From: an uncultured beta proteobacterium
GTDB taxonomy: Bacteria; Pseudomonadota; Gammaproteobacteria; Burkholderiales; Rhodocyclaceae
Assembly: GCA_903848955.1 (NCBI GenBank)
Contig: CAINHS010000034.1
Span: 1 to 33,404 of the forward strand
DNA length: 33,404 bases
Direction of reading: 5' to 3'
Under the pieces are notes generated by a model. It had not been told where the DNA came from. It did not search any database and saw nothing but the letters and a program-made list of their open reading frames with translations. Below are positions 13,467 to 32,196 of this stretch, one piece after another. The position numbers and the translations under genes were made by a program. Each line of letters opens with the position of its first letter. Positions within the stretch are counted from its first letter, which is position 1.

Positions 13467-13480
13467 TTGACACAGATCAA
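13467..13480. promoter_or_regulatory. FNR box between hemN and fnr
   Basis: TTGACACAGATCAA matches the FNR consensus TTGAT-N4-ATCAA with one change. Towards hemN, the spacing that puts the box at -41.5 places CATCCT at the -10 site and a start near 13432, a weak but workable promoter. Towards fnr the box is only 32 bases from the GTG start, too close for class II activation, so it may repress (autoregulation). Confidence 0.8.
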
Positions 13481-13512: not shown

Positions 13513-14271
13513 GTGCACGCAAACGTCAAGCAGAATCTAGCCCCGCTCATCAACCCCGGGCTGAAGCTCGCCTGTTCGCAGTGCAACCTGCGCGAACTGT
13601 GCCTGCCGTTCGGCCTTTCAGAAACCGACATGACTCGCCTTGACCACCTGATCGGCGGCGGGCGCAAGCTGAAGCGCGGCCATCATCTGTATCGTGCCGG
13701 CGATCCGTTCGAGTCCATCTTTGCCGTCAAGGCCGGTTTTTTCAAGACCGACGTGCTGACCGAAGACGGGCGCGACCAGGTAACCGGGTTCCAGATGGCC
13801 GGCGAGATCCTCGGCATGGATGGCATCAGCACCGAGGTACATGCCTGCAACGCGGTGGCACTGGAAGACAGCGAGGTGTGCCTGATCCCGTTCACCGAAC
13901 TGGAAAATCTGTCCAGCGAAATCCGCACCCTGCAACACCACTTGCACAAGGTCATGAGCCGCGAAATCGTGCGTGACCACGGCGTCATGATGCTGCTCGG
14001 CACCATGCGGGCGGAAGAGCGCCTCGCTGCCTTCCTGCTGAATCTGTCGCAGCGATTTACCGCGCGCGGCTATTCCCCGGCCGAGTTTCACCTGCGCATG
14101 ACGCGCGAGGAAATCGGATCCTATCTCGGCCTCAAGCTTGAAACCGTGAGTCGCGCCTTCTCCCGCTTCCAGGACGAAGGATTGATCTCCGTGCAGCAAA
14201 AGCACATCCGCATACTCGATATTCGTCGGCTGAAAACGCTGCTGGCGCCGCCCGACGGCCGTATCAGCTAG
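13513..14271 (+). CDS. fnr: FNR, oxygen-sensing Fe-S transcription regulator
   Basis: 252 residues. Cytoplasmic [4Fe-4S] regulator active without oxygen. Cluster cysteines are Cys21, Cys24 and Cys30 (CSQCNLREL-C) plus Cys123 (SEVCLIP), matching E. coli Cys20/23/29/122. A cyclic-nucleotide-binding-like beta-roll is followed by a dimer helix and a helix-turn-helix whose recognition helix LETVSRAFSRF carries the E-x2-S-R that reads TTGAT half sites. The start is GTG 13513; a nearby ATG at 13502 is in another frame. The stop codon shares the palindrome CTAG with the stop of the convergent SirB2-like gene. It probably controls the boxes listed in this window. Confidence 0.96.
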   Translation: MHANVKQNLAPLINPGLKLACSQCNLRELCLPFGLSETDMTRLDHLIGGGRKLKRGHHLYRAGDPFESIFAVKAGFFKTDVLTEDGRDQVTGFQMAGEILGMDGISTEVHACNAVALEDSEVCLIPFTELENLSSEIRTLQHHLHKVMSREIVRDHGVMMLLGTMRAEERLAAFLLNLSQRFTARGYSPAEFHLRMTREEIGSYLGLKLETVSRAFSRFQDEGLISVQQKHIRILDIRRLKTLLAPPDGRIS

Positions 14272-17398: not shown

Positions 17399-17440
17399 AT
17401 TGTGCGTGTTGGCTCGCCTTGAAACATTGACAACCGTCAA
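17399..17440 (-). promoter_or_regulatory. FNR/DNR-class promoter of the hemerythrin operon
   Basis: The perfect palindromic arms TTGAC-AACC-GTCAA lie at 17427-17440. On the minus strand CACAAT (17404-17399, four of six consensus bases) is the -10 element. This gives a start near 17392 and places the box centre at exactly -41.5, the class II position for FNR-family activators. The leader to the ATG would be ~24 bases and contains GGAG. Confidence 0.75.
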
Positions 17441-20695: not shown

Positions 20696-20709
20696 TTGAT
20701 CTTGATCAA
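20696..20709. promoter_or_regulatory. Perfect FNR box between phaC and the universal stress gene
   Basis: TTGATCTTGATCAA is an exact TTGAT-N4-ATCAA site. Towards the stress gene, TAGGAT at 20731-20736 would be the -10, giving a start near 20743 and the box at about -40.5 (class II). Towards phaC, CATAAT at 20656-20651 gives a start near 20644 and the box at about -58.5, near a class I position. One box may therefore serve both genes. Confidence 0.85.
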
Positions 20710-21203: not shown

Positions 21204-21738
21204 TGGCCGGCCGTACGCGGACGCAACGGCAAAGCCGGCAACGAAAGACAGGGGTCGGCAGTCATCAATTCCGCGCCCTCCACGGTGCCCACAACGCGCG
21301 CCCCGGAGCCGGCGTCCGCGGGCGGTTTATTTCTTGCTTATAAACTTGAAGTTAGTAATTTATTGATCTAAGTCAAAAGTCGCCCCCCGCCTGCGTTATA
21401 TCGTCGCCCTTTCGGCTTGGCCGAGGTTTTCCGGTATGCGTCGGGTCAGCGAATGGCAGGGGTCGGGCGGTACTTGCGAAGAAACCGCGCCCGCCATCGT
21501 CGTCGCCCGTTTGCCGTGAGTCCATGTTGAAGGCAACACGAGCGCCTCTAATACTCTGACTTGTAGTTATAATTTTGAAATGTTGGCAGATTCGCGGCGC
21601 CATGCTGCGGCGTGACCACGGCCAACGAACCGACACAACGGAACCGCAGAAATCCAGCGCTTCCGGCACTTGAATGGCGCTGTGCGCTTACGCACACGGA
21701 TCCGGTTTGATTTAGTTTATTTGCAAGGAGGAGTGGCT
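21204..21738 (+). other. Long intergenic region and leader before ccoN
   Basis: No convincing gene is seen in these 535 bases. An A/T-rich island (21328-21370) carries the FNR box. Downstream are a short stem-loop TCGGC-TTG-GCCGA followed by GGTTTT (21412-21430), a perfect TATAAT hexamer at 21568-21573 without a recognisable -35, and a hairpin TGTGCG-CTTA-CGCACA (21681-21696) about 30 bases before the ribosome site. If the FNR-box promoter is used, ccoN has an untranslated leader of roughly 330 bases. Confidence 0.6.
21363..21376 (+). promoter_or_regulatory. FNR box of the ccoNOQP operon
   Basis: TTGATCTAAGTCAA matches TTGAT-N4-(A/G)TCAA. TATATC at 21397-21402 or TATCGT at 21399-21404 sits 27-30 bases from the box centre, the right distance for a class II -10 element, giving a start near 21409-21411. 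The only downstream gene in this direction is ccoN. Confidence 0.8.
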
Positions 21739-23172
21739 ATGGAAGGTAATAGTGCTACACCAGTGAAGTACGACATGGAGGTGGTACGGTGGTTCACCAT
21801 CGCCGCTGCCATCTATGCAGTGGTAGGCACGCTGGTCGGCGTCATCATCGCGGCCCAGCTGGCGTTTCCGTTAATGAACTTTGATCTTGAATGGCTCACC
21901 TTCGGCCGCCTGCGACCGCTGCATACCAATGCGGTGATCTTTGCGTTCGGCGGCTGCGTGCTGTTTGCAACGGGTCACTACATCGTGCAGCGCACGGGGG
22001 GTACCCGGCTGTGGAGCAACAAGCTGGCCTGGTTCACCTTCATCGGCTGGAACCTGATCATCGTTTCAGCCGTCGTCTCATTTCCGATGGGCTGGACCCA
22101 AGGCAAGGAATACGCCGAACTGGAATGGCCGATCGACCTTGCCATCGCGGTGGTCTGGCTGGTGTACGGTTTCAACTACATCATGACCGTCGGCATCCGC
22201 AAGACCTCACATATCTATGTGTCCAACTGGTTCACCATGGCGATGATCGTGATGATCACCTATCTCCATGTGTTCAACAGTCTGGCGATACCGGTGAGTC
22301 TGACCAAGTCCTATTCCATCTACTCCGGGGTGCAGGATGCCATGGTGCAGTGGTGGTACGGTCACAATGCGGTGGGCTTCTTCCTCACCGGCGGCTTCCT
22401 CGCCATCATGTACTACTTCGTGCCCAAGCAGGCAGGCCGCCCGGTGTTCTCCTACAGGCTGTCGGTACTGCACTTCTGGGCCCTGGCCTTCGGCTATGTC
22501 TGGCTCGGCGGCCACCATCTGCAATACACGGCGCTGCCTGACTGGACCGGCTCGCTGGGTGCTGCGGTTTCCCTGGCGATGATCATCCCGTCATGGGGCG
22601 GCGCCATGAACGGCATGATGACGCTGTCCGGTGCCTGGGACAAATTGCGCACCGACTACATTCTGCGTTTCCTGGTGGTTTCGCTGGCCTTCTACGCGAT
22701 GTCCACTTTCGAGGGTCCGGTGATGTCGATCAAGACGGTCAACGCCTTGTCGCACTACACCGACTGGACCATCGGTCACGTGCATTCGGGCGCTCTGGGC
22801 TGGGTAGCCATGGTGTCCTTCGGCGCGATCTACCACCTGATCAAGAAGCTGTGGGGCGTGGACAAGATGTACTCGGACAGCCTGGTCAATGTGCATTTCT
22901 GGCTGGCGACCATCGGTACCGTGATCTACGTCGTGGCAATGTGGGTGTCGGGCATCATGCAAGGCCTGATGTGGAGGGATTACGACGAATACGGAACCTT
23001 GAGTTATACCTTCGTGGAGTCGGTTTCCGCCATGCATCCCTACTATGTGATGCGCATGATCGGCGGCCTGATCTTCAACATCGGTACCGTGATCGCTCTG
23101 TTCAACATCGTAATGACCGTTCGCACTGCCGCCTCGCTGCGCAGCACGAACGCCGTTGCGGCTCACGCCTAA
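21739..23172 (+). CDS. ccoN: cbb3-type cytochrome c oxidase subunit I
   Basis: 477 residues from ATG 21739 behind AAGGAGG; a longer frame to 21670 is not family-like. Catalytic subunit of the high-affinity oxidase, reducing oxygen to water and pumping protons. Ligands are clear: His62 (low-spin haem b), His209 (Cu[10 protein letters not shown]), the helix VII Tyr253 with His259/His260 ([10 protein letters not shown]), and His347/His349 ([11 protein letters not shown]) for haem b3 and b. Numbering is offset by two from the well-studied Pseudomonas stutzeri enzyme. First gene of ccoNOQP, expressed from the FNR-box promoter. Confidence 0.98.
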
Positions 23173-23186
23173 GGGAGGGGTAAATC

Positions 23187-24008
23187 ATGTCTGATAATCA
23201 CGACAAAATTTATTCGACCAAGTTCCAGGACAGTATGGAGCGGAAAACGCTCCTGATGTTCCTTGTAATCGCCCTCGCGGTAGCGGTCGGCGGCATCGTG
23301 GAAATCGTTCCGCTGTTTTATCTGCCGAATACGGCGATGTGCGCAACGATGGCCGGCAACGATCCGAGTTGCAACAAGACGCAACACAAGGACGCCAGCG
23401 GCAAGGTCATCCCGATGGACAAGATCATCTGGAATCCGGCGACATCGGCGCACAAGACGCTGAACGACTGGCAGCCGGGTGATGGCGTGCGTCCGTACAA
23501 GGCGCTGGAGATGGCGGGTCGTGCCGTATATATCCGCGAAGGCTGCTATCTGTGCCACTCGCAGATGATCCGCCCCTTCCGCGACGAGAAGGATCGCTAC
23601 GGTCACTACTCCATCGCCGAAGAGTCCATGTACGACCATCCCTTCCAGTGGGGCTCGAAGCGTACCGGACCCGATCTGGCTCGCGTCGGCGGCAAGTATT
23701 CGGATGACTGGCACCGCCTCCACTTGCGCTATCCGCGCAGCGTGGTGCAGGAGTCGGTCATGCCCAATTACGTCTGGCTCGAAAACAAGCCGGTGGATGT
23801 GGCTGGTACCGTGCAGACGCTCAAGGTCATGACCATAGTGCCGTTCAACGCGGTCCCGGCCAAGATTTACACCGCTGTCTATGGCGACGACTATGCCGGC
23901 GCAGCTGCGGAACTCAAGGGCAAGACGGACATGGATGCGTTGATCGCCTACCTGCAGGGACTGGGCAATCACGTCAAGTTCGAAGAGGGCGTGAACTACC
24001 GTGACTAG
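23187..24008 (+). CDS. ccoO: cbb3-type cytochrome c oxidase subunit II (mono-haem), with an insertion
   Basis: 273 residues, longer than the ~200-240 common for CcoO. An N-terminal anchor (~21-46, ending GGIVEIVPLFYLP) precedes the periplasmic haem c domain with Cys120-x2-Cys123-His124 (REGCYLCHSQMIRPF), then HPFQWGSKRTGPDLARVGGK and the conserved VMPNYVWL. Between VEIVPLF (38-44) and the PYKALEMAGR stretch lie 58 residues where typical CcoO has ~13-15; this insert contains Cys52 and Cys62. The subunit carries electrons from CcoP or cytochrome c to CcoN. It lies 14 bases after ccoN. Confidence 0.97.
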   Translation: MSDNHDKIYSTKFQDSMERKTLLMFLVIALAVAVGGIVEIVPLFYLPNTAMCATMAGNDPSCNKTQHKDASGKVIPMDKIIWNPATSAHKTLNDWQPGDGVRPYKALEMAGRAVYIREGCYLCHSQMIRPFRDEKDRYGHYSIAEESMYDHPFQWGSKRTGPDLARVGGKYSDDWHRLHLRYPRSVVQESVMPNYVWLENKPVDVAGTVQTLKVMTIVPFNAVPAKIYTAVYGDDYAGAAAELKGKTDMDALIAYLQGLGNHVKFEEGVNYRD

Positions 24009-24027
24009 GCTATTGGCATACCTAGGC

Positions 24028-24210
24028 ATGGATGTGACTGCCATGACAATGAACGACTGGACGGGTGTATTCCTTGCCCTGGTAGCGGTCATTGGCATGG
24101 TGGCTACATATGTTCTGGTATTCCGACCATCCAACAAGGAACAATTCGAAGCCCAGGGCAGAATGATCCTGGACGACGATGACCCTGTCAAATTGGGAGA
24201 TAAGAGATGA
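24028..24210 (+). CDS. ccoQ: cbb3 oxidase small subunit CcoQ
   Basis: 60 residues if ATG 24028 is used; GTG 24001 (overlapping the ccoO stop, 69 residues) and ATG 24043 are alternatives, and none has a strong ribosome site. One membrane segment (FLALVAVIGMVATYVLVF) is followed by a charged tail FRPSNKEQFEAQGRMILDDD, the usual CcoQ layout. CcoQ stabilises the complex. Its stop overlaps the ccoP start (ATGA). Confidence 0.85.
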   Translation: MDVTAMTMNDWTGVFLALVAVIGMVATYVLVFRPSNKEQFEAQGRMILDDDDPVKLGDKR

Positions 24211-25145
24211 GCGACAAACATAGTGCAGGTGAAGTGCCGACGACGGGCCACGTATGGGATGACGATTTGGGCGATTTCACCAATCAGCCACCCAAGTGGT
24301 GGATGCTTGGATTGACTGCCAGCGCCCTCTGGTGTGTGGCCTACGCCTTGTATTACCCGATGATTCCGGTCTCGTCGTCATCGATCTTCAGCAAGGGACT
24401 CGGGGGCTGGACCGCGATCAGCGAAATGGAAGCGGACAAGAGCAAGGTCGACGTGGTTCGCAGCAAGTTCGAGAACAAGCTGAAGGACATGACGCCGGCT
24501 GCGATTCTGGCCGACCGCGAGCTGACGGAGTACGTTACGCGTTCCGGCAAGGTGTTGTTCGGTGACAATTGTGCGCCGTGCCATGGTCCGAACGGTGTCG
24601 GCACGAAAGACAAGAACGCTCTGTTCGCGCCGATCCTGAACGACGATGACTGGTTGTATGGCGGCAAGATTGACGACATCCATACCTCGATCGCCGGCGG
24701 CCGCAAAGGCGTGATGATCGCGAACAAGGATTTGCTGTCCGAAGCCGAACTCGACACCCTCGCCAAGGCGGTTGCCGCAGGCAAGCCCACCTCTACCCCG
24801 CTATTCACGGAAAAAGGCTGTGTCGCCTGTCACGGCCCGGATGGCAAAGGGATGGCGGCCATGGGTTCGGCCAATCTGACCGACAGCGTATGGCGTTTTG
24901 ACAACTCGGTCGAAGGCATCAAGCAGACCATCAGGTACGGCGTGAACTCGGGCGATCCGAAAGCACGCATCGCCGTGATGCCGGCCTTCAAGGCGGCAGG
25001 CAAGCTGTCGGATGTCGAACTCAAGAAGCTGGCGGTGTATGTGTACAAGTTCGGCGGCGGCAAGCCCGACCAGGTAGCCGAGGCTCCGGCGGCTGCGGCT
25101 CCGGCTGCAGCGACTCCGGTAGCGGAAGCGCCGGCGGCCAAGTAA
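24207..25145 (+). CDS. ccoP: cbb3-type cytochrome c oxidase subunit III (di-haem)
   Basis: 312 residues. The N-terminal FixP domain HVWDDDLGDFTNQPPKWW precedes a membrane segment (~33-52). Two haem c sites follow: Cys122-x2-Cys125-His126 (CAPCHG) and Cys205-x2-Cys208-His209 (CVACHG). The second domain has the axial VMPAFK; the first has GVMIANKD at the equivalent place. The end is an Ala/Pro-rich tail (about residues 292-312) with imperfect AEAPAA repeats. It receives electrons from soluble cytochrome c. It overlaps ccoQ by four bases. Confidence 0.97.
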   Translation: MSDKHSAGEVPTTGHVWDDDLGDFTNQPPKWWMLGLTASALWCVAYALYYPMIPVSSSSIFSKGLGGWTAISEMEADKSKVDVVRSKFENKLKDMTPAAILADRELTEYVTRSGKVLFGDNCAPCHGPNGVGTKDKNALFAPILNDDDWLYGGKIDDIHTSIAGGRKGVMIANKDLLSEAELDTLAKAVAAGKPTSTPLFTEKGCVACHGPDGKGMAAMGSANLTDSVWRFDNSVEGIKQTIRYGVNSGDPKARIAVMPAFKAAGKLSDVELKKLAVYVYKFGGGKPDQVAEAPAAAAPAAATPVAEAPAAK

Positions 25146-25159
25146 GCCTCTTGTTCATC

Positions 25160-25181
25160 GGGGCGGGAGCAATCCCGCCCC
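25160..25181 (+). terminator. Strong hairpin after ccoP (no T run)
   Basis: GGGGCGGGA (25160-25168), loop GCAA and TCCCGCCCC (25173-25181) form a perfect 9-base stem with a GNRA-type tetraloop. It is followed by CACACAAAAAGG rather than T residues, so it is likely a partial terminator or a stabiliser of the ccoNOQP message ahead of the small gene at 25203. Confidence 0.6.
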
Positions 25182-25202
25182 ACACAAAAAGGTGGAACTC
25201 AA

Positions 25203-25322
25203 ATGAATCATGATGCGGTTTTCTATAGTGTCATCATCGCTGTCGCTGGCTCTGCAGTAGTGGCCGTCTGGTTGCTTTGGGTGGCATACCGCAATGCCAC
25301 CCAGGACAAGGGAAAGAAGTAA
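25203..25322 (+). CDS. 39-residue single-span membrane protein, possible CcoM-like oxidase subunit
   Basis: A small frame opens at ATG 25203 with AAAAGGTGG about 8 bases upstream and ends in TAA at 25322. The product begins MNHDAVFYSV, has a hydrophobic stretch at about 8-28 (YSVIIAVAGSAVVAVWLLWV) and ends in a short basic tail (QDKGKK). Size, single helix and place between ccoP and ccoG resemble CcoM, the 36-residue extra subunit of the P. stutzeri cbb3 oxidase; sequence identity to CcoM is not evident to me. Good ribosome site and codon use support a real gene; the CcoM role is inference. Confidence 0.72.
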   Translation: MNHDAVFYSVIIAVAGSAVVAVWLLWVAYRNATQDKGKK

Positions 25323-25704
25323 GTCCTGCCAACAACGGGCCCGGTGCGCTTTCCCGCTCGCACTGAGCCCGGCCTGCTTTCCCGATTCCTCGCTGACAAC
25401 ACCAGAATCACGGCTGAATTGCCGCCGCGGGCGGCAGTCCTTGAATCGGCCCGGTTGAGGGTGCTGATCAAACCGCGTCAGACAAGGTGGCGCACACCCG
25501 AGAGCAGATCCTGAGTCGTTGGCGACGGAGGTCAGGTTCGCGCCCGCCGCCCCGATCGGCAATCGCCCGATGCACCGGAAACCGGAAGCAATGCCGCAAT
25601 CAATCCGATTAATGCTACTAATTGCGATGAGGCGGAACTGCAGCAACCTAGTTATGATCGCAGGTTGACGCTGAAGGCGCATCTCATAAATCAGGAGCGG
25701 ACAC
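25323..25704. other. Intergenic region between the small membrane gene and ccoG
   Basis: About 380 bases with no convincing gene. A perfect hairpin TGCCGCC-GCG-GGCGGCA lies at 25420-25436. A TTGACG at 25665-25670 precedes CATAAA at 25685-25690, but the 14-base spacing is too short for a normal promoter. No FNR box with 4-base spacing is present, so how ccoGHIS is expressed is unclear. It may be by read-through. Confidence 0.5.
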
Positions 25705-27138
25705 TTGCACCCCGAAAACGGCACTAACGAAAGCGGCGAAGTCGCGAAGCTCTACGGTGAGTTTGAGACCTGGTCGGTCAACCTGGGCGACCGGACCATA
25801 CACGCCAAGCGCATGCCCGGATTCTTCAGGAGGGTCAAGAATCTCACCCAGAGCGCTCTCTGGCTGCCCTTTTTCCTGCTTCCCTACCTGCGCTGGAATG
25901 GCCAGCAGGCGATCCTTTTCGACATCGAGGACCGCCAGTTCCATCTCTTCAGCTTGTCCGTGCTGCCGCAGGATATCTGGATGCTGTCGCTGGTGTTGCT
26001 GGTAGCCGCGATGACATTGTTTGCCGTGACATCGGTTGCCTCACGGGTATGGTGCGGCTATCTGTGCTTCCAGACGGTCTGGACCGACGTCTTCACCTGG
26101 CTGGAAAGCAAGATCGAAGGCAATCCGAATGCGCGCCGCAAGCTGGATGAAGCGCCGTGGAGTCTCGACAAATTGCGCAAGAAGGCGCTCAAGCATTTTT
26201 CCTGGATGCTGGTTGCGCTTTTCACGGGCATCACTTTTTCGATCTGGTTCGTCGATGCATTTGAGTACTGGGCCGCGCTGGTCCGCTTGCAGCTGCCATT
26301 GGTGGGCTGGGTGGTACTCGCCATGTTCTTCCTCGGCACCTACATCCTGGGCGGCTTGCTGCGCGAGCAGGCCTGCTTCTGGCTGTGCCCCTACGCCCGC
26401 ATCCAGGCGGTAATGATCGATTCGCAAACGATTCTGCCCACCTATGACAAGCAGCGCGGCGAGCCGCGCGGCAAGGTACGTCATGGCAGTGATGCCGCGG
26501 AGAAGAAGACCGGCGACTGCATCGACTGCTACCAGTGCGTCCAGGTCTGCCCCACCGCAGTGGATATCCGCCAGGGGCAACAACTGGGGTGCATTACCTG
26601 CGGCTTGTGCATCGATGCCTGCGACTCGGTGATGGACAAGGTCAACCGGCCGCACGGCCTGATCCGTTACGCCTCCCTGGATGAAATTTCCGGCAAGCCG
26701 GCGAAGAAGATGTATCAGCATCCGCGCACCTGGGTCTATATCGGCATCATCCTCATTGCCCTGGGTGGCATTGTCTGGGGACTGACGCACATGGGCACGA
26801 TGACCTTGAAAGTCATCCACGAACGGCAGCCGCTGTTTGTGAGCATGAGCGACGGCTCGATCCAGAACAAGTATGAATTCAAGGTGGTGAACAAGACCGG
26901 CAAGGATTTTCGCGTCAGCGTCACCGCAGAGAGCGGTATTCCCGGGCAAGTCATTGTGACTGCCGAAAACAATCCGAACCTGCGCCATGGCCACGGCACG
27001 GCATTCACCATCTTCGTCAAGGCGCCGCTCGCCGGCATCACGGCCGAGGTCACGCCGATCGAGTTCTATCTCAGGAGCGTGGACGATCCCGCCATGTTTG
27101 CCGAATACACAAGCCAGTTCTACGGTCCGAAGCGATAA
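25705..27138 (+). CDS. ccoG: CcoG (FixG), 4Fe-4S membrane protein for cbb3 oxidase assembly
   Basis: 477 residues from TTG 25705, preceded by AGGAGCGG; no ATG fits the family start. About five membrane segments; a CGYLCFQTVW helix motif; then a double ferredoxin domain CIDCYQCVQVCPTAVDI with GCITCGLCIDACDSVM (~270-315); and a C-terminal periplasmic Ig-like part ending EYTSQFYGPKR. CcoG is thought to reduce copper for delivery to the oxidase. First gene of ccoGHIS. Confidence 0.96.
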   Translation: MHPENGTNESGEVAKLYGEFETWSVNLGDRTIHAKRMPGFFRRVKNLTQSALWLPFFLLPYLRWNGQQAILFDIEDRQFHLFSLSVLPQDIWMLSLVLLVAAMTLFAVTSVASRVWCGYLCFQTVWTDVFTWLESKIEGNPNARRKLDEAPWSLDKLRKKALKHFSWMLVALFTGITFSIWFVDAFEYWAALVRLQLPLVGWVVLAMFFLGTYILGGLLREQACFWLCPYARIQAVMIDSQTILPTYDKQRGEPRGKVRHGSDAAEKKTGDCIDCYQCVQVCPTAVDIRQGQQLGCITCGLCIDACDSVMDKVNRPHGLIRYASLDEISGKPAKKMYQHPRTWVYIGIILIALGGIVWGLTHMGTMTLKVIHERQPLFVSMSDGSIQNKYEFKVVNKTGKDFRVSVTAESGIPGQVIVTAENNPNLRHGHGTAFTIFVKAPLAGITAEVTPIEFYLRSVDDPAMFAEYTSQFYGPKR

Positions 27139-27147
27139 GGAGTTGCA

Positions 27148-27657
27148 ATGATTTCCCAGAGCAATAAATCCGGTCTGCGCAATCCATGGTTGTTGGGCTT
27201 GCTGGGCCTGATTGTGCTGGTGTTGGCGGTGAATGCGACCTTTATCTGGCTGGCCACTCATAACAGGTCCACCCTGGTGGATAGAGAGTACAAAACCAAG
27301 GATCGCAAGACCAATGCCGAGTTCCTCAGCGAACTCGGAACGCATCAGGCACTGGCGTGGCGCACCGCCATCAGAAAGCCGAAGCTGCTGGCGCTGAATG
27401 CACCGGCACTCTATGAAATCAGCGTAGCGGATCGTGACGGCAAGCCGGTCAGCGGCGAGATGACCGTGGAGGCCTACCGCGGGGCTGATGCCGGCAAGGA
27501 CTTCACCACCAGCTTCAAAGAGGTGTCGGCCGGCAACTATCAGGGCTACATCACCTTCCCGCTGAAAGGCTATTGGGAGTTGCACATCCACGTCACGCGT
27601 GGCAAGGACGAGTTCACCGTCGATACCCAGCGCTTTGCCGTTGCGGACGCTCCCTGA
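27148..27657 (+). CDS. ccoH: CcoH (FixH) assembly protein
   Basis: 169 residues from ATG 27148 behind AAGGAG. One membrane anchor (PWLLGLLGLIVLVLAVNATF) is followed by a periplasmic beta-rich FixH domain (YEISVADRDGKPVSGEMTVE; GNYQGYITFPLKGYWELHI). CcoH binds CcoP-containing intermediates and helps assemble and stabilise the oxidase. Starts 9 bases after ccoG. Confidence 0.94.
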   Translation: MISQSNKSGLRNPWLLGLLGLIVLVLAVNATFIWLATHNRSTLVDREYKTKDRKTNAEFLSELGTHQALAWRTAIRKPKLLALNAPALYEISVADRDGKPVSGEMTVEAYRGADAGKDFTTSFKEVSAGNYQGYITFPLKGYWELHIHVTRGKDEFTVDTQRFAVADAP

Positions 27658-27674
27658 GCCGAGGGTCAGTCCTG

Positions 27675-30137
27675 ATGACGGAAGCACGCCAGGCTGAATC
27701 GTCCGATTGCTTCCACTGCGGTTTGCCGATTCCGGCAAAAGTGGATTTTCAAGCCGCGCCGGACGGTGTCCAGCATCAATTCTGTTGCTTCGGCTGCCAG
27801 TCGGTGTGCAGCGCCATCTACGACGCCGGGCTGCAGGGCTACTACCAGCGCACGCCTGAGGGCGTGCTGCTGGCACCGCCACCCGAACCGCCGAAAGACA
27901 TCGAGGTCTACGACTTCGACGAAGTACAGCAGGAATTCACCACCCGTTCCGGCGACCTGCGCGAGATTCAACTGCTGGTCGAGGGCATCCATTGCGCGGC
28001 GTGCATCTGGCTGATCGAGCGCGGGTTGCAGCGTCAGCCGGGCGTCTTGTCGGCCGAGGTCAATCTGGCAGGCAAGCGCCTGCGGCTGCGCTGGGACAGC
28101 AGCAAATGCAAGCTCTCCGACCTGATTCGGGCGCTGTCGCGAATCGGCTATTCCGCCGTGCCGTACGACCCGGAAAGTGCCGAGGGGGCAATCAAGAACA
28201 GCAATCGCGCCCTGCTGTTCCGCCTGTTCTTCGCCGGTTTTGCGGCGATGAACATGATGTGGATCGCCATCGCGCTCTACAGCGGAGCCAATCACGATGA
28301 ATTCCGCAGCTTCTTCCACTGGATCGGACTGGTGCTGGCGACGCCGACACTGCTGTATGCGGGCTTCCCCTTCTATCGCGGTGCAGTCGGCGGACTGCGC
28401 GCGCGCCATCTCACCATGGATCTGCCGATCGCGCTCGGCCTCAGCGTTACCTACGCCTATTCGCTGTATGTCACGCTGACCAACAACCAGCAGGGTGAGG
28501 TGTATTTCGACACCGTCACCAATCTCACGTTCGTGATCCTTGTCGGGCGCTATCTGGAAGGCATGTTCCGCCATCAGGCGGTATCCGCCACCAGGCGCCT
28601 GATGGAATTGCAACCGCGGGTGGCGCTGGTGATCCGCGACGGACAGGAGCAGATGACGCCCATACGCGGCGTCAAGCCGGGCGACCGCGTCCTGATCAAG
28701 CCGGGAAGCGCCGTACCGGTGGATGGCACGGTGCTGGAGGGGTTCAGCGCCGTCGATGAGTCGATGCTGAGCGGCGAGTCGGTGCCGCTGCGGAAGGGCG
28801 TCGGTGACCCGGTCTCGGCAGGCACCACGAACACCAGCGGCGCGCTGCTGGTTGAGGTGCGGGTGCGGCTGCAGGACACCGCATTGTCCAAGATCATCCG
28901 TCTGGTGGAAGAGGCGCAGTCGTCGAAGGCGCCGATCCAGCGCCTGGCGGACAGCATCGTGCCCTGGTTTGTGCTGGTGACGCTGGTCTGCGCCGGGGTC
29001 ACGTTCTTCCTCTGGCACGGTCGCGATTTCGAGATCGCGCTGATGGCCGCGACTTCGGTGCTGATCATCACCTGCCCCTGTGCTCTGGGCATGGCGACGC
29101 CGATGTCGATCGCCGTGGCCTCCGGACTGGGTGCCAAGCACGGCATCCTGGTCAAGAACGGCCTGGTGCTGGAGACGCTGTCGAAAGTCACGCATTTCGT
29201 CTTCGACAAGACCGGAACCCTGACCGAAGGCCGGATGAGCCTGGCAGAACTGCACGCTGCGCCTGATGTCGATGCGCAGGAAGTCCTGCGCCTGGCCGCC
29301 GCGGTGGAGCGCTACAGCGAACACGGTGCGGCACGGGCGATCACGGCCGGCGCCGGAGAAAGACAGCTGTCCTATCGCGACCTGGCCGTAACCGGCTTCC
29401 ACGCCACTGCCGGCCTTGGCGTTGCCGCCGATGTTGCCGGCCAGACCATGCTGCTTGGCAGCGGCAACTGGCTGGCGCAGTCAGGGGTCGCAGTGGATGC
29501 CGCCTTGCAGGATCGGGCGCAGCAACTCGAAGCGCAGGCGATGAGTTGTGTCTTCGTTGCGCTGGGCGGCAGGCACGTAGCGATCTTTGCGCTGGCCGAC
29601 AGGCTGCGTGGCGATGCGCAGCGATTGATCGCCGAGTTGCAGGCGGCGGGAATCGCCATGACGCTGCTGAGCGGCGATCGCAGGCCTGTTGCCGAGGCGA
29701 TTGCCCGCCAGCTCGGCGGCGGCATGCAGGTCATCGCCGAGGTGCTGCCGCAGGACAAGGATCAGGTCATACGCAACTTGCAGCAGCGCGGCGAAACCGT
29801 GGCCATGGTGGGCGACGGGGTGAACGATGCGCCCGCGCTGATTCGGGCCGACGTCGGCATCGCGCTCGGTTCGGGAACCGATGTGTCCGTAGACAACGCC
29901 GACATCGTGCTGATGCACAACGAGCTCGGCAAAGTGGTGCAGGCGCTGCAGTTGTCGCGTCGCACCCTGCTCACCATCAAGCAGAACATCGGCTTGTCCT
30001 TCGTGTATAACATCATCATGGTGCCGCTGGCGATGATGGCCGCCGTGAGCCCCCTGGTAGCGGCGATAACCATGCCGATCAGCTCCCTGGTCGTGATCGG
30101 CAACGCGGCGCGGATACGCACCCTGTTCAAGAAATAG
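27675..30137 (+). CDS. ccoI: CcoI (FixI/CtpA-type) copper-exporting P1B ATPase for cbb3 assembly
   Basis: 820 residues from ATG 27675, 17 bases after ccoH. A Cys-rich N-terminus (Cys12-x2-Cys15; CCFGC-x3-C at 37-45) is followed by a heavy-metal domain with Cys107-x2-Cys110 (GIHCAACIWLIE), eight membrane helices including the CPC metal site (TCPCALGMATP), the phosphorylation motif DKTGTLTEG and the hinge GDGVNDAPAL. It supplies copper to the CcoN binuclear centre from the cytoplasmic side. The DUF2182-like Cys-rich extension is typical of CcoI as opposed to CopA. Confidence 0.96.
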   Translation: MTEARQAESSDCFHCGLPIPAKVDFQAAPDGVQHQFCCFGCQSVCSAIYDAGLQGYYQRTPEGVLLAPPPEPPKDIEVYDFDEVQQEFTTRSGDLREIQLLVEGIHCAACIWLIERGLQRQPGVLSAEVNLAGKRLRLRWDSSKCKLSDLIRALSRIGYSAVPYDPESAEGAIKNSNRALLFRLFFAGFAAMNMMWIAIALYSGANHDEFRSFFHWIGLVLATPTLLYAGFPFYRGAVGGLRARHLTMDLPIALGLSVTYAYSLYVTLTNNQQGEVYFDTVTNLTFVILVGRYLEGMFRHQAVSATRRLMELQPRVALVIRDGQEQMTPIRGVKPGDRVLIKPGSAVPVDGTVLEGFSAVDESMLSGESVPLRKGVGDPVSAGTTNTSGALLVEVRVRLQDTALSKIIRLVEEAQSSKAPIQRLADSIVPWFVLVTLVCAGVTFFLWHGRDFEIALMAATSVLIITCPCALGMATPMSIAVASGLGAKHGILVKNGLVLETLSKVTHFVFDKTGTLTEGRMSLAELHAAPDVDAQEVLRLAAAVERYSEHGAARAITAGAGERQLSYRDLAVTGFHATAGLGVAADVAGQTMLLGSGNWLAQSGVAVDAALQDRAQQLEAQAMSCVFVALGGRHVAIFALADRLRGDAQRLIAELQAAGIAMTLLSGDRRPVAEAIARQLGGGMQVIAEVLPQDKDQVIRNLQQRGETVAMVGDGVNDAPALIRADVGIALGSGTDVSVDNADIVLMHNELGKVVQALQLSRRTLLTIKQNIGLSFVYNIIMVPLAMMAAVSPLVAAITMPISSLVVIGNAARIRTLFKK

Positions 30138-30145
30138 GATGGCCC

Positions 30146-30346
30146 ATGGAAGTGATCTACAGCCTGATTCCCGGCATGATGCTTTTCGGCTTGCTGTTCG
30201 TCGCCGTGCTGATCTGGGCGGTAAAGAAGCGGCAATACGAGGACATGGAAGGCAACGGCAACCGCATCCTGCTTGACGACGACGAGGACAAGATGCCCTA
30301 CCCCACCAGCGTCAAGCCGGATAGCGCGAGAAAGACTAGCGACTAA
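30146..30346 (+). CDS. ccoS: CcoS, cbb3 oxidase maturation protein
   Basis: 66 residues. One N-terminal membrane segment (YSLIPGMMLFGLLFVAVLIW) precedes a cytoplasmic tail with the family hallmark YEDMEGNGNRILLDDDED. CcoS is needed for cofactor insertion in cbb3 oxidase. Starts 8 bases after ccoI; its last 11 bases overlap the convergent gene. Confidence 0.95.
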   Translation: MEVIYSLIPGMMLFGLLFVAVLIWAVKKRQYEDMEGNGNRILLDDDEDKMPYPTSVKPDSARKTSD

Positions 30347-31016
30347 CCGCCTGGCCGCCGTTGTCCAGCAGCGGCTTGACCAGTTTGCCGAAGTCCCGCG
30401 GCGGAACATATTGCATCACCGGCTTTTCCGTCGCACTCAGGCTGATATCCAGGCCGTGCTGCGGATACAGCCAGTGGGTCGCATCACCCTTGGTTTCCCT
30501 GATCACCTGGTCCGGCTTGCCGAAGCGTTTCAGCAGCAGGGAATCCTCGAGGCGCACTCCCGGCATCAGGGTCAGGCTGGTGACCGGCATGCTGCGCAAT
30601 CGCGCGATGTCATCCGGGGTCAGGGTAATCTTCTTGCCACTGCCGGTCGCAGTCATGCGCAGGCCGCGCTCATACATCTGCTGCAATTCTTCGTCCGGAA
30701 TGGCGACCGTCAGCACCACCCGCGAACGCAGACCGGCCAGATTGATCTGCTCGAAGAATACTTCGGCGGCAAGGCGACCGTCGGGCGACTTGAAAAGTCC
30801 GGCTTCAACGTGTTCCTTGAACAGTTGTTCGGCTTCGGCAGGCGTGGTCAGGCCTAGGGTCACGCCGAAGACACGGACCGAATCCGGCGTCGGATGCTCG
30901 ATGTGCCAGGGCAACTCCTCTTTCTTCGGGCGCTCGCTCGGGAACAGAAATGCCCCCAGCAGAATCGCCACCGAAATGACGCCCACGCTCCAGTAAATCT
31001 TGCTTTCGTTAGTCAT
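30336..31016 (-). CDS. Unrecognised membrane-anchored protein convergent with ccoS
   Basis: 226 residues from ATG 31016. One N-terminal membrane segment (~8-26, IYWSVGVISVAILLGAFLF), then a soluble, probably periplasmic part: RVFGVTLGLTTPAEAEQLF resembles an OmpA-adjacent or SmpA/BamE-like helix start, and LEDSLLLKRFGKPDQVIRE followed by THWLYPQHGLDISLSA resembles the 'GxP.. W.Y...G' pattern of small beta proteins. I do not recognise the family. It follows the 31037-31543 gene by 20 bases, so the two are probably co-transcribed. Overlaps ccoS by 11 bases at the 3' ends. Confidence 0.75.
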   Translation of the reverse strand: MTNESKIYWSVGVISVAILLGAFLFPSERPKKEELPWHIEHPTPDSVRVFGVTLGLTTPAEAEQLFKEHVEAGLFKSPDGRLAAEVFFEQINLAGLRSRVVLTVAIPDEELQQMYERGLRMTATGSGKKITLTPDDIARLRSMPVTSLTLMPGVRLEDSLLLKRFGKPDQVIRETKGDATHWLYPQHGLDISLSATEKPVMQYVPPRDFGKLVKPLLDNGGQAVSR

Positions 31017-31036: not shown

Positions 31037-31543
31037 TCAGGCGGAAGCCTGGGAGGCCGCTGCCGGGGAGCCTCTGGGCATTTTGCTGTGGCGGGCCTGA
31101 TACATGGAATCGTTGCCGAGGACGATCAACACCAGCAATGACACCATGACGGGCAGCAGTCCGACGCCGCCGAGCAGCGCAATGGTGACGACCTTCGGCC
31201 AGCCCATCATGGCCGACAGCCAGTAGCCTCCGCCCAGCACAACGCCGGCGATGATCAAGAGCCAGATGAAATGCTTGTTGCGCCTGTCAGCGACCACCCA
31301 GTGCGCCTTGACGAACAGCGTCTCGTTACCGGCGGCGATCCGCCTGGCCTTCACCAGAAGATAGCCGGTGATCACGCATGAGGTAACCGGCACAACCAGC
31401 ACCATCAGCGGAAAGGTACTGAACACCCCGAAGGTCGAGGCGAAGACCAGGATGTGATTGAACACCAGGTTGATCAGGAAGATCTCATGCGGCCATTTGG
31501 CACGCCTGATTTCCTCCCGTGATGCGCTATAGCTCTCCGACAT
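31037..31543 (-). CDS. Unrecognised four-helix membrane protein
   Basis: 168 residues from ATG 31543, with AGGGAGG just upstream (a strong ribosome site; longer frame to 31594 rejected). A charged start (SREEIRRAKWPHEIFLINLV) carries a His-x-Ile motif, followed by about four membrane segments and an Ala-rich, probably cytoplasmic tail. A conserved-looking loop is VKAHWVVADRRNKHFIW. Function unknown. The position next to the cco locus suggests, but does not show, a respiratory role. Confidence 0.75.
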   Translation of the reverse strand: MSESYSASREEIRRAKWPHEIFLINLVFNHILVFASTFGVFSTFPLMVLVVPVTSCVITGYLLVKARRIAAGNETLFVKAHWVVADRRNKHFIWLLIIAGVVLGGGYWLSAMMGWPKVVTIALLGGVGLLPVMVSLLVLIVLGNDSMYQARHSKMPRGSPAAASQASA

Positions 31544-31720
31544 CCTGCCTCCCTGAGCGTCCGTGCTTGAAGTGCGGGGCAAACGCCATATCACGGCGCC
31601 ATCGCCTGGCGAGGCAACTGCCGCGGGCGGTCACCACCTGACGGCAGTTCGGGATAAGGAGGAATGCGAAGCGAGTCATTGCGCGACCGGGAAAAGCGCA
31701 TCCTCCAAGGTGATACGGAT

Positions 31721-31790: not shown

Positions 31791-31889
31791 TCAGTTCTGG
31801 TCGCTGAATACCTGCTTGACCATCCACACGGAAAAAATCACGACCACAATTGCAGTGCCGATTGCAGCGACATCAGAGATCAGTGCCAT
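31791..31889 (-). CDS. 32-residue single-span membrane peptide
   Basis: ATG 31889 has an excellent ribosome site (AAAGGAG, about 7 bases upstream) and the frame ends at TGA 31791. The product starts MALISDVAAIGTAIVVVIFS and ends in a short VKQVFSDQN tail, so almost all of it is one membrane helix. Family unknown; small extra subunits of terminal oxidases have this size and layout. Upstream (31890-32052) a TTGACA at 31998-31993 lacks a good -10, and a CCGGCGA-ATGG-TCGCCGG hairpin lies at 31963-31980. It could also be read from a promoter further upstream if the 32053 terminator leaks. Confidence 0.65.
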   Translation of the reverse strand: MALISDVAAIGTAIVVVIFSVWMVKQVFSDQN

Positions 31890-32052: not shown

Positions 32053-32079
32053 AAAAAAAAGGGTGCGCATCGCGCACCC
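32053..32079 (-). terminator. Rho-independent terminator
   Basis: On the minus strand GGGTGCGC (32079-32072), loop GAT and GCGCACCC (32068-32061) form a perfect 8-base stem followed directly by eight T (32060-32053). It is the clearest terminator in the window. It could end the small RNA, the SDR gene message, or both. Confidence 0.92.
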
Positions 32080-32134
32080 CGAACCCCAACAGAGAGCCTT
32101 CGGGCGACGACGCGAAGTCATCACCATAAAACCC
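32053..32134 (-). ncRNA. Candidate FNR-activated small RNA (~82 nt)
   Basis: A predicted start at G 32134 follows a class II FNR promoter and ends in a perfect intrinsic terminator at 32053. The RNA would open GGGUUUUAU, form a 9-pair stem-loop (GGUGAUGAC 32125-32117, loop UUCGC, GUCGUCGCC 32111-32103), then a linker with GGCUCUCUGUUGGGG, then the terminator. Two of the nine stem pairs are G-U on the minus-strand RNA and would be A-C mismatches on the other strand, which fixes the direction. A frame beginning AUGGUGAUG has no stop before the terminator, so it is not a normal peptide gene. Stem-loop, open C/U-rich linker and an eight-U tail are the layout of Hfq-type sRNAs such as FnrS and AniS. 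Confidence 0.68.
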
Positions 32135-32140
32135 GCTGCA

Positions 32141-32182
32141 AGTATGGTTACTTGCCGCCCGGGGCGTTTTGATCTGAGTCAA
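32141..32182 (-). promoter_or_regulatory. Class II FNR promoter reading away from the SDR gene end
   Basis: The box TTGATCTGAGTCAA (32169-32182) differs by one base from the ccoN box. On the minus strand CATACT (32146-32141, four of six consensus bases) lies exactly where a -10 element must be for the box centre to fall at -41.5. The start would be G 32134. On the plus strand no gene follows, so the minus direction is the sensible one. Confidence 0.75.
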
Positions 32183-32196
32183 CAATAGCGCTATTG
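32183..32196. promoter_or_regulatory. Perfect 14-base palindrome next to the FNR box
   Basis: CAATAGCGCTATTG reads identically on both strands and abuts the FNR box. Relative to the predicted start at 32134 its centre is at -55.5, a place for a second regulator. It could alternatively be part of the 3' structure of the SDR message. Confidence 0.4.

Follow-up and report, generated by a model that had tools for sequence, protein, structure and literature searches.

FnrS, a small RNA (sRNA) of Enterobacteriaceae, is activated by FNR and represses its targets anaerobically (PMC4263372). AniS of Neisseria meningitidis is induced by anoxia and is a ligand of Hfq (PMC4423775, PMC11912907), its control by FNR being given in a title cited there. 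The stretch of DNA analysed here, 33,404 nucleotides in full and hereafter called the window, carries on its minus strand what is likely a stand-alone regulatory RNA activated by FNR (32053-32134), with both transcription and FNR dependence inferred from sequence alone. An earlier, sequence-only reading had proposed an RNA of this kind, and the comparative data support that interpretation as by far the best one, transcription remaining an inference. The window sRNA would share its predicted FNR control with FnrS, from which it differs in its presumed pairing region (CUCUCUGUUGGGGUUGGGG) and in the position of its gene in or near a cbb3 locus. AniS is betaproteobacterial like the window sRNA but comes from a different order of bacteria. 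As predicted from the sequence, the new RNA would be controlled like FnrS and AniS, and kinship to either has not been shown. Searched at the Rfam cut-offs, the window and 20 homologous loci yielded a single hit, a tRNA close to the window end, and no FnrS was among the Rfam matches reported for the locus and its relatives, the presence of FnrS in the Rfam copy being unconfirmed. No report of the sRNA was found in the open-access PMC text searched. The earlier suggestion of a possible new family still stands in the sense that no Rfam family reaches its cut-off.

Other likenesses concern the shape of the RNA. S17, the Betaproteobacteria toxic sRNA (RF02278), shares with the window sRNA a C/U-rich conserved module followed by a terminator, and both modules start with UGUCUC, but the two differ in their core (TGTCTCCTCCACCCTCCTCCTTTGGTGTGGATT). 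RF02278-like matches occur in 39 of 41 family genomes (over the cut-off in 29 of the 41), and the genome of the window has them on contigs C116 (over the cut-off), C86 and C83 (both below), with none on C34. A search of the locus with RF02278 at E up to 10 gave no match, and no FNR box was present within 200 nt upstream in the 11 RF02278 loci that were read. RF02278/S17 is a separate RNA that coexists with ours in the same genomes. S17S is a processed 3' form of S17 (PMC11722255); conservation in our RNA sets in abruptly near (U)GUCUC, which resembles S17S, and by this analogy a processed short form is possible, although only inferred.

SorY of Rhodobacter sphaeroides (RF02651) is similar in size, shape and in its CUC-CUGUUGG-UUGGG linker. 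Full-length matches below the threshold were obtained for the window (20.3 bits) and for six of 12 relatives (20-33 bits, the best of 33 in L041), and neither the window nor the relatives reached the gathering cut-off of 111 bits. SorY differs in control, since it depends on RpoHI/RpoHII (PMC5036791), and in place, its 5' end lying at 1,632,642 (PMC6238624) and ccoN near 2.44 Mb (PMC4263372). Homology was not accepted on this evidence; with sub-threshold scores and a different control and place, a common origin is possible and unproven. The idea that SorY is the FnrL-bound RSs2461 was also ruled out, RSs2461 being SorX and SorY being RSs1543 (PMC5036791).

Promoter and structure of the predicted RNA

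The layout described by the sequence-only reading, with an FNR box at -41.5, a CATACT element and a start at G 32134, was confirmed as an arrangement of sequence (Table 1), the transcript start itself being inferred. On the minus strand, 6 nt separate CATACT from G32134 and 41.5 nt separate the box centre from it. An FNR box at the class-II position together with a -10 element, taken as the criterion for an FNR-activated sRNA, is met by sequence. The promoter was not among the sites returned by a sigma-70 scan of the window, presumably because it has no -35 hexamer. FNR class-II promoters are known without a -35 hexamer.

Table 1. Positions of the predicted sRNA gene and associated features (window coordinates unless a locus is named)
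Feature	Position	Strand	Basis or remark
FNR box TTGACTCAGATCAA	32169-32182	minus	matches TTGAY-N4-RTCAA exactly; centre 32175.5 = -41.5
-10 element CATACT	32141-32146	minus	22 nt after FNR box
predicted sRNA, ~82 nt, 5' end G32134	32053-32134	minus	5' end inferred from promoter spacing
5' hairpin, 9 pairs	32103-32125	minus	structure kept, sequence variable
conserved linker CTCTCTGTTGGGGTT, presumed base-pairing region	32082-32096	minus	aligned homologous sites
intrinsic terminator, 9-pair stem, eight U at RNA end	32053-32080	minus	fold and terminator prediction
fnr, presumed activator	13513-14271	plus	NCBIfam PRK11161 Fnr, homology match 13537-14244
cbb3 oxidase cluster, ccoN to ccoS	21670-30346	plus	Pfam/NCBIfam: ccoN, FixG/ccoG, ccoI-type ATPase, ccoP, FixS/ccoS
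sRNA module as ompW 3'UTR	L046 2001-2052 (-); L193 1249 (+)		Pfam OmpW and FNR box upstream

The window is rich in FNR boxes, with nine at no more than one mismatch versus 2.17 expected. Four more exact matches lie at 13467-13480, 17427-17440, 20696-20709 and 21363-21376; the further exact boxes include one just 5' of fnr and one upstream of ccoN, and one precedes a universal-stress-protein-like frame (weak NCBIfam match). The fnr gene of the window scores 250 bits against PRK11161 (cut-off 228), and fnr is present in 39 of 41 family genomes searched. A box of this type cannot distinguish FNR from DNR-like regulators, so that DNR or another FNR-like protein may possibly share the control. A 14-nt palindrome, CAATAGCGCTATTG, occupies 32183-32196 immediately upstream of the box; it was not found by eye in the printed sequences of relatives.

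Comparison of homologous sites shows the promoter to be conserved. Upstream of 68 of the 70 aligned sites there is a TTGAY-N4-RTCAA box, followed in 66 of these 68 at a distance of 21 or 22 nt by the start of the best -10 hexamer; for the remaining L060 and L064 the script chose a nearer hexamer, and by eye another exists at 21 nt in both. These 70 sites were chosen by similarity including the module, the promoter being outside the match except in the closest loci. Scanning the GTDB genome collection for an exact pattern gave at least 119 stretches; 115 of these 119 have an FNR box within 150 nt, compared with 738 of 20,000 random 150-mers from the same loci (3.7%); the spacing from box to -10 is 21 or 22 nt in 109 of the 115. 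The 70-site and 119-site sets overlap in genomes. Among the four scan sites without a box (L212, L233, L220 and L193), L212 and L233 are truncated by the end of the fetched stretch, and L220, apparently the same contig as L029 of the 70-site set, is a longer form with a box at -212 and CATACT 21 nt after it. In L193, and in L046 of the 70-site set, the module directly follows the stop codon of OmpW (Pfam E-values of 2.6e-42 and 3e-45, respectively) and forms the 3'UTR of an ompW gene that itself has an FNR box upstream.

Folding confirmed the structural elements first seen by eye, namely a 9-pair stem with two G-U pairs, a linker and a terminator with eight U. The 82-nt RNA (32134-32053) folds at -37.2 kcal/mol (z -4.65; none of 200 shuffles equally stable) into the hairpin, a single-stranded linker and a 9-pair terminator ending in eight U, the terminator being also recovered by an independent prediction. 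The fold additionally pairs the 5' GGGUUUU with AAGGCUC, which leaves the linker partly masked; this helix could not be tested by covariation because six of its seven pairs are constant in 14 sequences. The covariation set comprised those 14 sequences, from the window, 12 congeners and G038, a genome of another genus. In the 5' hairpin 97.6% of cells are paired, and none of 500 shuffles attained the observed covariation score of the whole structure. Since the outer helix is nearly constant and the terminator constant in this set, covariation says nothing on either; covariation of the hairpin is shown. The sequence-only reading had stated that homologous loci keeping the terminator without the box, the -10 element or compensatory changes in the first stem would refute it. 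The outcome was the opposite, all three being conserved, because the spacing of box and -10 is fixed in nearly all sites and five of the nine hairpin pairs have changed on both sides. Eight members from elsewhere gave fold z-scores from -1.4 to -5.4; a strong fold is common among members and not universal.

The conserved module is likewise shown by comparison. TCTCTGTTGGGGTT is invariant across 42 aligned rows, all of them recruited by similarity including the linker, so that this invariance is partly selected. In the 70 aligned sites the 5' part is free to differ between genera, with the linker and a large share of the terminator stem constant, and the sequence of the terminator stem itself is mostly conserved among relatives. 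Mean pairwise identities in 14 close loci were 94% for the box, 96% for the -10, 89% for the RNA start, 100% for the linker and 93% for the terminator, as against 39% upstream, 56% in the spacer, 35% after the -10 and 26% downstream; as the box (TTGAY-N4-RTCAA) and linker were located by pattern, the values for these two are in part a consequence of how they were found.

That the RNA is a short mRNA under FNR control which encodes a peptide (a dual-function RNA) can practically be dismissed. In favour of this reading, the window has an ATG frame that stays open through the module, and an ATG close to the predicted start also occurs in some other genera. Against it, the ATG at RNA position 8 is lost in L003 (AAGG) and L009 (CTGG), so there is no conserved small ORF; moreover, the hairpin loop differs by one base between relatives and the linker shows no change at any of the three codon positions. 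The frame from this ATG, read by eye, does not close before the terminator, as had been claimed at the outset.

Distribution and genomic neighbourhood

The 191-nt region has a single match in its own genome. BLAST with a 141-nt region hit 224 of the 297 family genomes sampled, from 54 of 68 genera, and gave no match in the other 73. Most of the 224 align in the 3' part only; nearly the full region aligns in 13 genomes of the same genus (the own one included, one partial) and in G038, and the further listed matches cover linker and terminator only, at ~85-96% identity. A covariance model of the 3' module, run on a sample of 300 genomes of the order, matched 16: nine in the family of the window, two others at 57-59 bits and five at 23-32 bits, the last five being possibly chance matches. 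About 60 of 80 titles read from the GTDB scan are what we take to be Rhodocyclales, the remainder being mostly broadly named MAGs. The genera include Azoarcus, Aromatoleum, Thauera, Zoogloea, Dechloromonas, Azospira and Accumulibacter, and Hydrogenophilus thiooxidans is also listed. An sRNA family spread through the Rhodocyclales is likely, its transcription being inferred from sequence.

Synteny was read in 189 oriented loci, in subsets set by the available flanking sequence, and shows an association with the cbb3 genes, the usual order being ccoI-ccoS-sRNA-[second FNR box]-ccoN. The window departs from this order: its sRNA is flanked by an SDR gene and a small unassigned frame, at a distance from ccoN and ccoS. 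A frame at 31791-31889 (minus), ~160 nt downstream of the sRNA terminator, would encode a 32-aa membrane peptide with a single span; its ribosome site, AAAGGAG, is good, and it has no Pfam or NCBIfam match. In L259 two unassigned frames lie between ccoS and the sRNA, and the window has relatives of both on the other side of its sRNA. These window frames, 30336-31016 and 31037-31594 (minus), whose relatives adjoin the sRNA of L259 on its upstream side, have no Pfam or NCBIfam matches either.

A first alternative, already raised by the sequence-only reading, is that the hairpin and U-run are simply the terminator of the SDR gene 140 nt upstream, with box and -10 occurring by chance. It is favoured by the SDR gene being immediately upstream on the same strand in the window, and by an SDR match ~3 kb upstream in 49 of 119 named loci. 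Against it, 173 of 180 loci with enough sequence have the end of ccoS or ccoI no more than 1.5 kb upstream of the sRNA, the FNR box and -10 keep a fixed spacing in nearly all sites, and the linker is conserved beyond the needs of a terminator. This rival failed, contradicted by the homologous loci, and we regard it as next to excluded.

A second alternative sees the RNA as the 5' leader of ccoNOP, with transcription started by FNR and the terminator acting as an attenuator before ccoN. In its favour, of 168 loci with 1 kb or more of downstream sequence, 139 have a ccoN match beginning after the sRNA on its own strand; measured from inside the terminator, the extrapolated start of ccoN is a median of ~134 nt away. 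However, a second FNR box stands between terminator and ccoN in 130 of 140 ccoN-adjacent loci, and 29 of the 168 lack a ccoN match over 2.5 kb, or over as much flank as was fetched, including the window and Zoogloea loci, where other genes follow the sRNA instead. Six named loci have an fnr match ~1.1 kb downstream, and three Zoogloea loci that were read have downstream what we take to be an Ndk-like start or RlmN-like frame. We consider the leader reading very improbable. Promoter and module are retained through these rearrangements, which speaks strongly against a simple SDR terminator and leaves a ccoN leader improbable. Independence from ccoN and the SDR gene is shown at the level of compared sequences.

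Candidate targets of the conserved linker

Pairing in trans is inferred. A 12-mer search for targets gave no conserved one in the own genome. The best-supported target, with pairing inferred from sequence, is dsrC/tusE in another genus, here called g10, where a site was found in the 5'UTR in five of seven genomes. In four of them CCCCAACCCCAACAGAGAGA, a 20-nt perfect complement of the module, lies 5-7 nt before the dsrC ATG, and the fifth has one mismatch; the site is absent from the other two of the seven g10 genomes and is confined to that genus. The gene was identified by Pfam DsrC (2.8e-39). Two computed sRNA-dsrC duplexes reach -39.7 and -49.6 kcal/mol, and 300 mononucleotide shuffles of the second dsrC mRNA stretch gave a mean of -23.6 and a lowest value of -34.9 kcal/mol. 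The silencing of aerobic or metal-containing proteins, suggested earlier by analogy, is not established, the best target being dsrC/tusE of another genus. A recurring inverted repeat around TTTGACA...TGTCAA was also observed upstream of g10 dsrC/tusE (L446, L447, L449, L450, L454), perhaps the site of an unknown regulator.

Other, shorter sites are repeated in two genera, preceding a thiol-peroxidase-like gene (Pfam Redoxin; L389, L445) and a 151-aa protein that has no counterpart in Pfam (L479, L502, L504). In the own genome, a 12-mer with up to one mismatch finds the sRNA itself and five other sites, and the only long match close to a start is an 11-nt one in the 5'UTR of a gene that we take from its sequence to be dksA-like. 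This candidate was rejected, its site being lost in a congener, and so was the fnr 5'UTR, which has a 12-nt match in G010 only and 8 nt in G004.

Wider counts give little support. Two exact 12-mer seeds occur at 15 places each in 69 family genomes versus 19 and 18 for reversed patterns, hence without enrichment. Exact seeds lie near any start in 12 of 30 cases versus 11 of 31 for a permuted control, with no clear difference, and near ATG in 10 versus six; a crowding of seed sites before start codons was unsupported on this recount, whose permuted control pattern belongs to a repeated element. A dispersed repeat with TCACCACAGAGACACAGAG is present in the own genome (G000) and other family genomes, and the own genome has 19 occurrences of the 12-mer pattern DCACCACAGAGA. 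A gapped seed-ATG pattern was found in 158 of 249 genomes versus 63 of 249 for a permuted control that retained the AGAGAG, an excess partly due to RNase P RNA; one recurring site, CAACAGAGAGCAGACCGCCGATG, was rejected as a target, being RNase P RNA in four of four cases tested. ORFs of at least 100 aa follow 76 of 119 gapped sites versus 17 of 40 in the control, and the next complementary base is not preferred at the gapped sites. This sample consisted of 121 rows kept by eye from a subset of the sites after removal of RNase P-like, known-sRNA and repeated-ATG rows, with G003:C38 omitted and the RNase P row L387 excluded to leave 119; for the control, 40 of 82 rows were taken. Overall the seed evidence is weak, and no target is secured in the own genome of the window.

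An RNA that sequesters a protein, for instance by titrating a regulator, instead of pairing with mRNAs would fit the invariance of much of the terminator stem, which exceeds what linker pairing requires, and the weak or absent general target enrichment. Against it, a 20-nt perfect dsrC complement in four related genomes is hard to explain without pairing, and we find sequestration unlikely.

Proposed mechanism and biological meaning

In the reading that we prefer, an mRNA-pairing sRNA, a drop in oxygen would lead FNR, whose gene lies in the same window, to bind at -41.5 and start transcription of an 82-nt RNA that would end at its own terminator. The 5' hairpin would serve structure or stability, and the near-invariant 3' module (CUCUCUGUUGGGGUUGGGG plus terminator) would be the working part, pairing with the translation-start regions of mRNAs and lowering their translation. 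From where the dsrC site lies, repression is inferred to work by blocking ribosome binding. Hfq or another chaperone is probably involved, which is again an inference, the U-rich 3' end being the sole Hfq-related feature of the predicted sRNA.

A bolder reading, which we hold to be a little more likely wrong than right, is that of an undescribed sRNA of the Rhodocyclales, encoded in the cbb3 locus and built around a portable module, which retunes dsrC and other genes at the loss of oxygen. The ompW 3'UTR forms, seen in two lineages, are examples from nature of how an sRNA module passes between a gene of its own and the tail of an mRNA. If the bolder reading is true, the genes of the low-oxygen oxidase and a silencing RNA would be co-induced from adjacent FNR boxes. 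The seven genera named above from the GTDB scan, Azoarcus to Accumulibacter, drive denitrification, the degradation of aromatics and phosphorus removal as conditions change between oxic and anoxic. An FNR-controlled RNA common to them in the cbb3 locus, if confirmed as such, would add a post-transcriptional layer to the oxic-anoxic switch of these bacteria.
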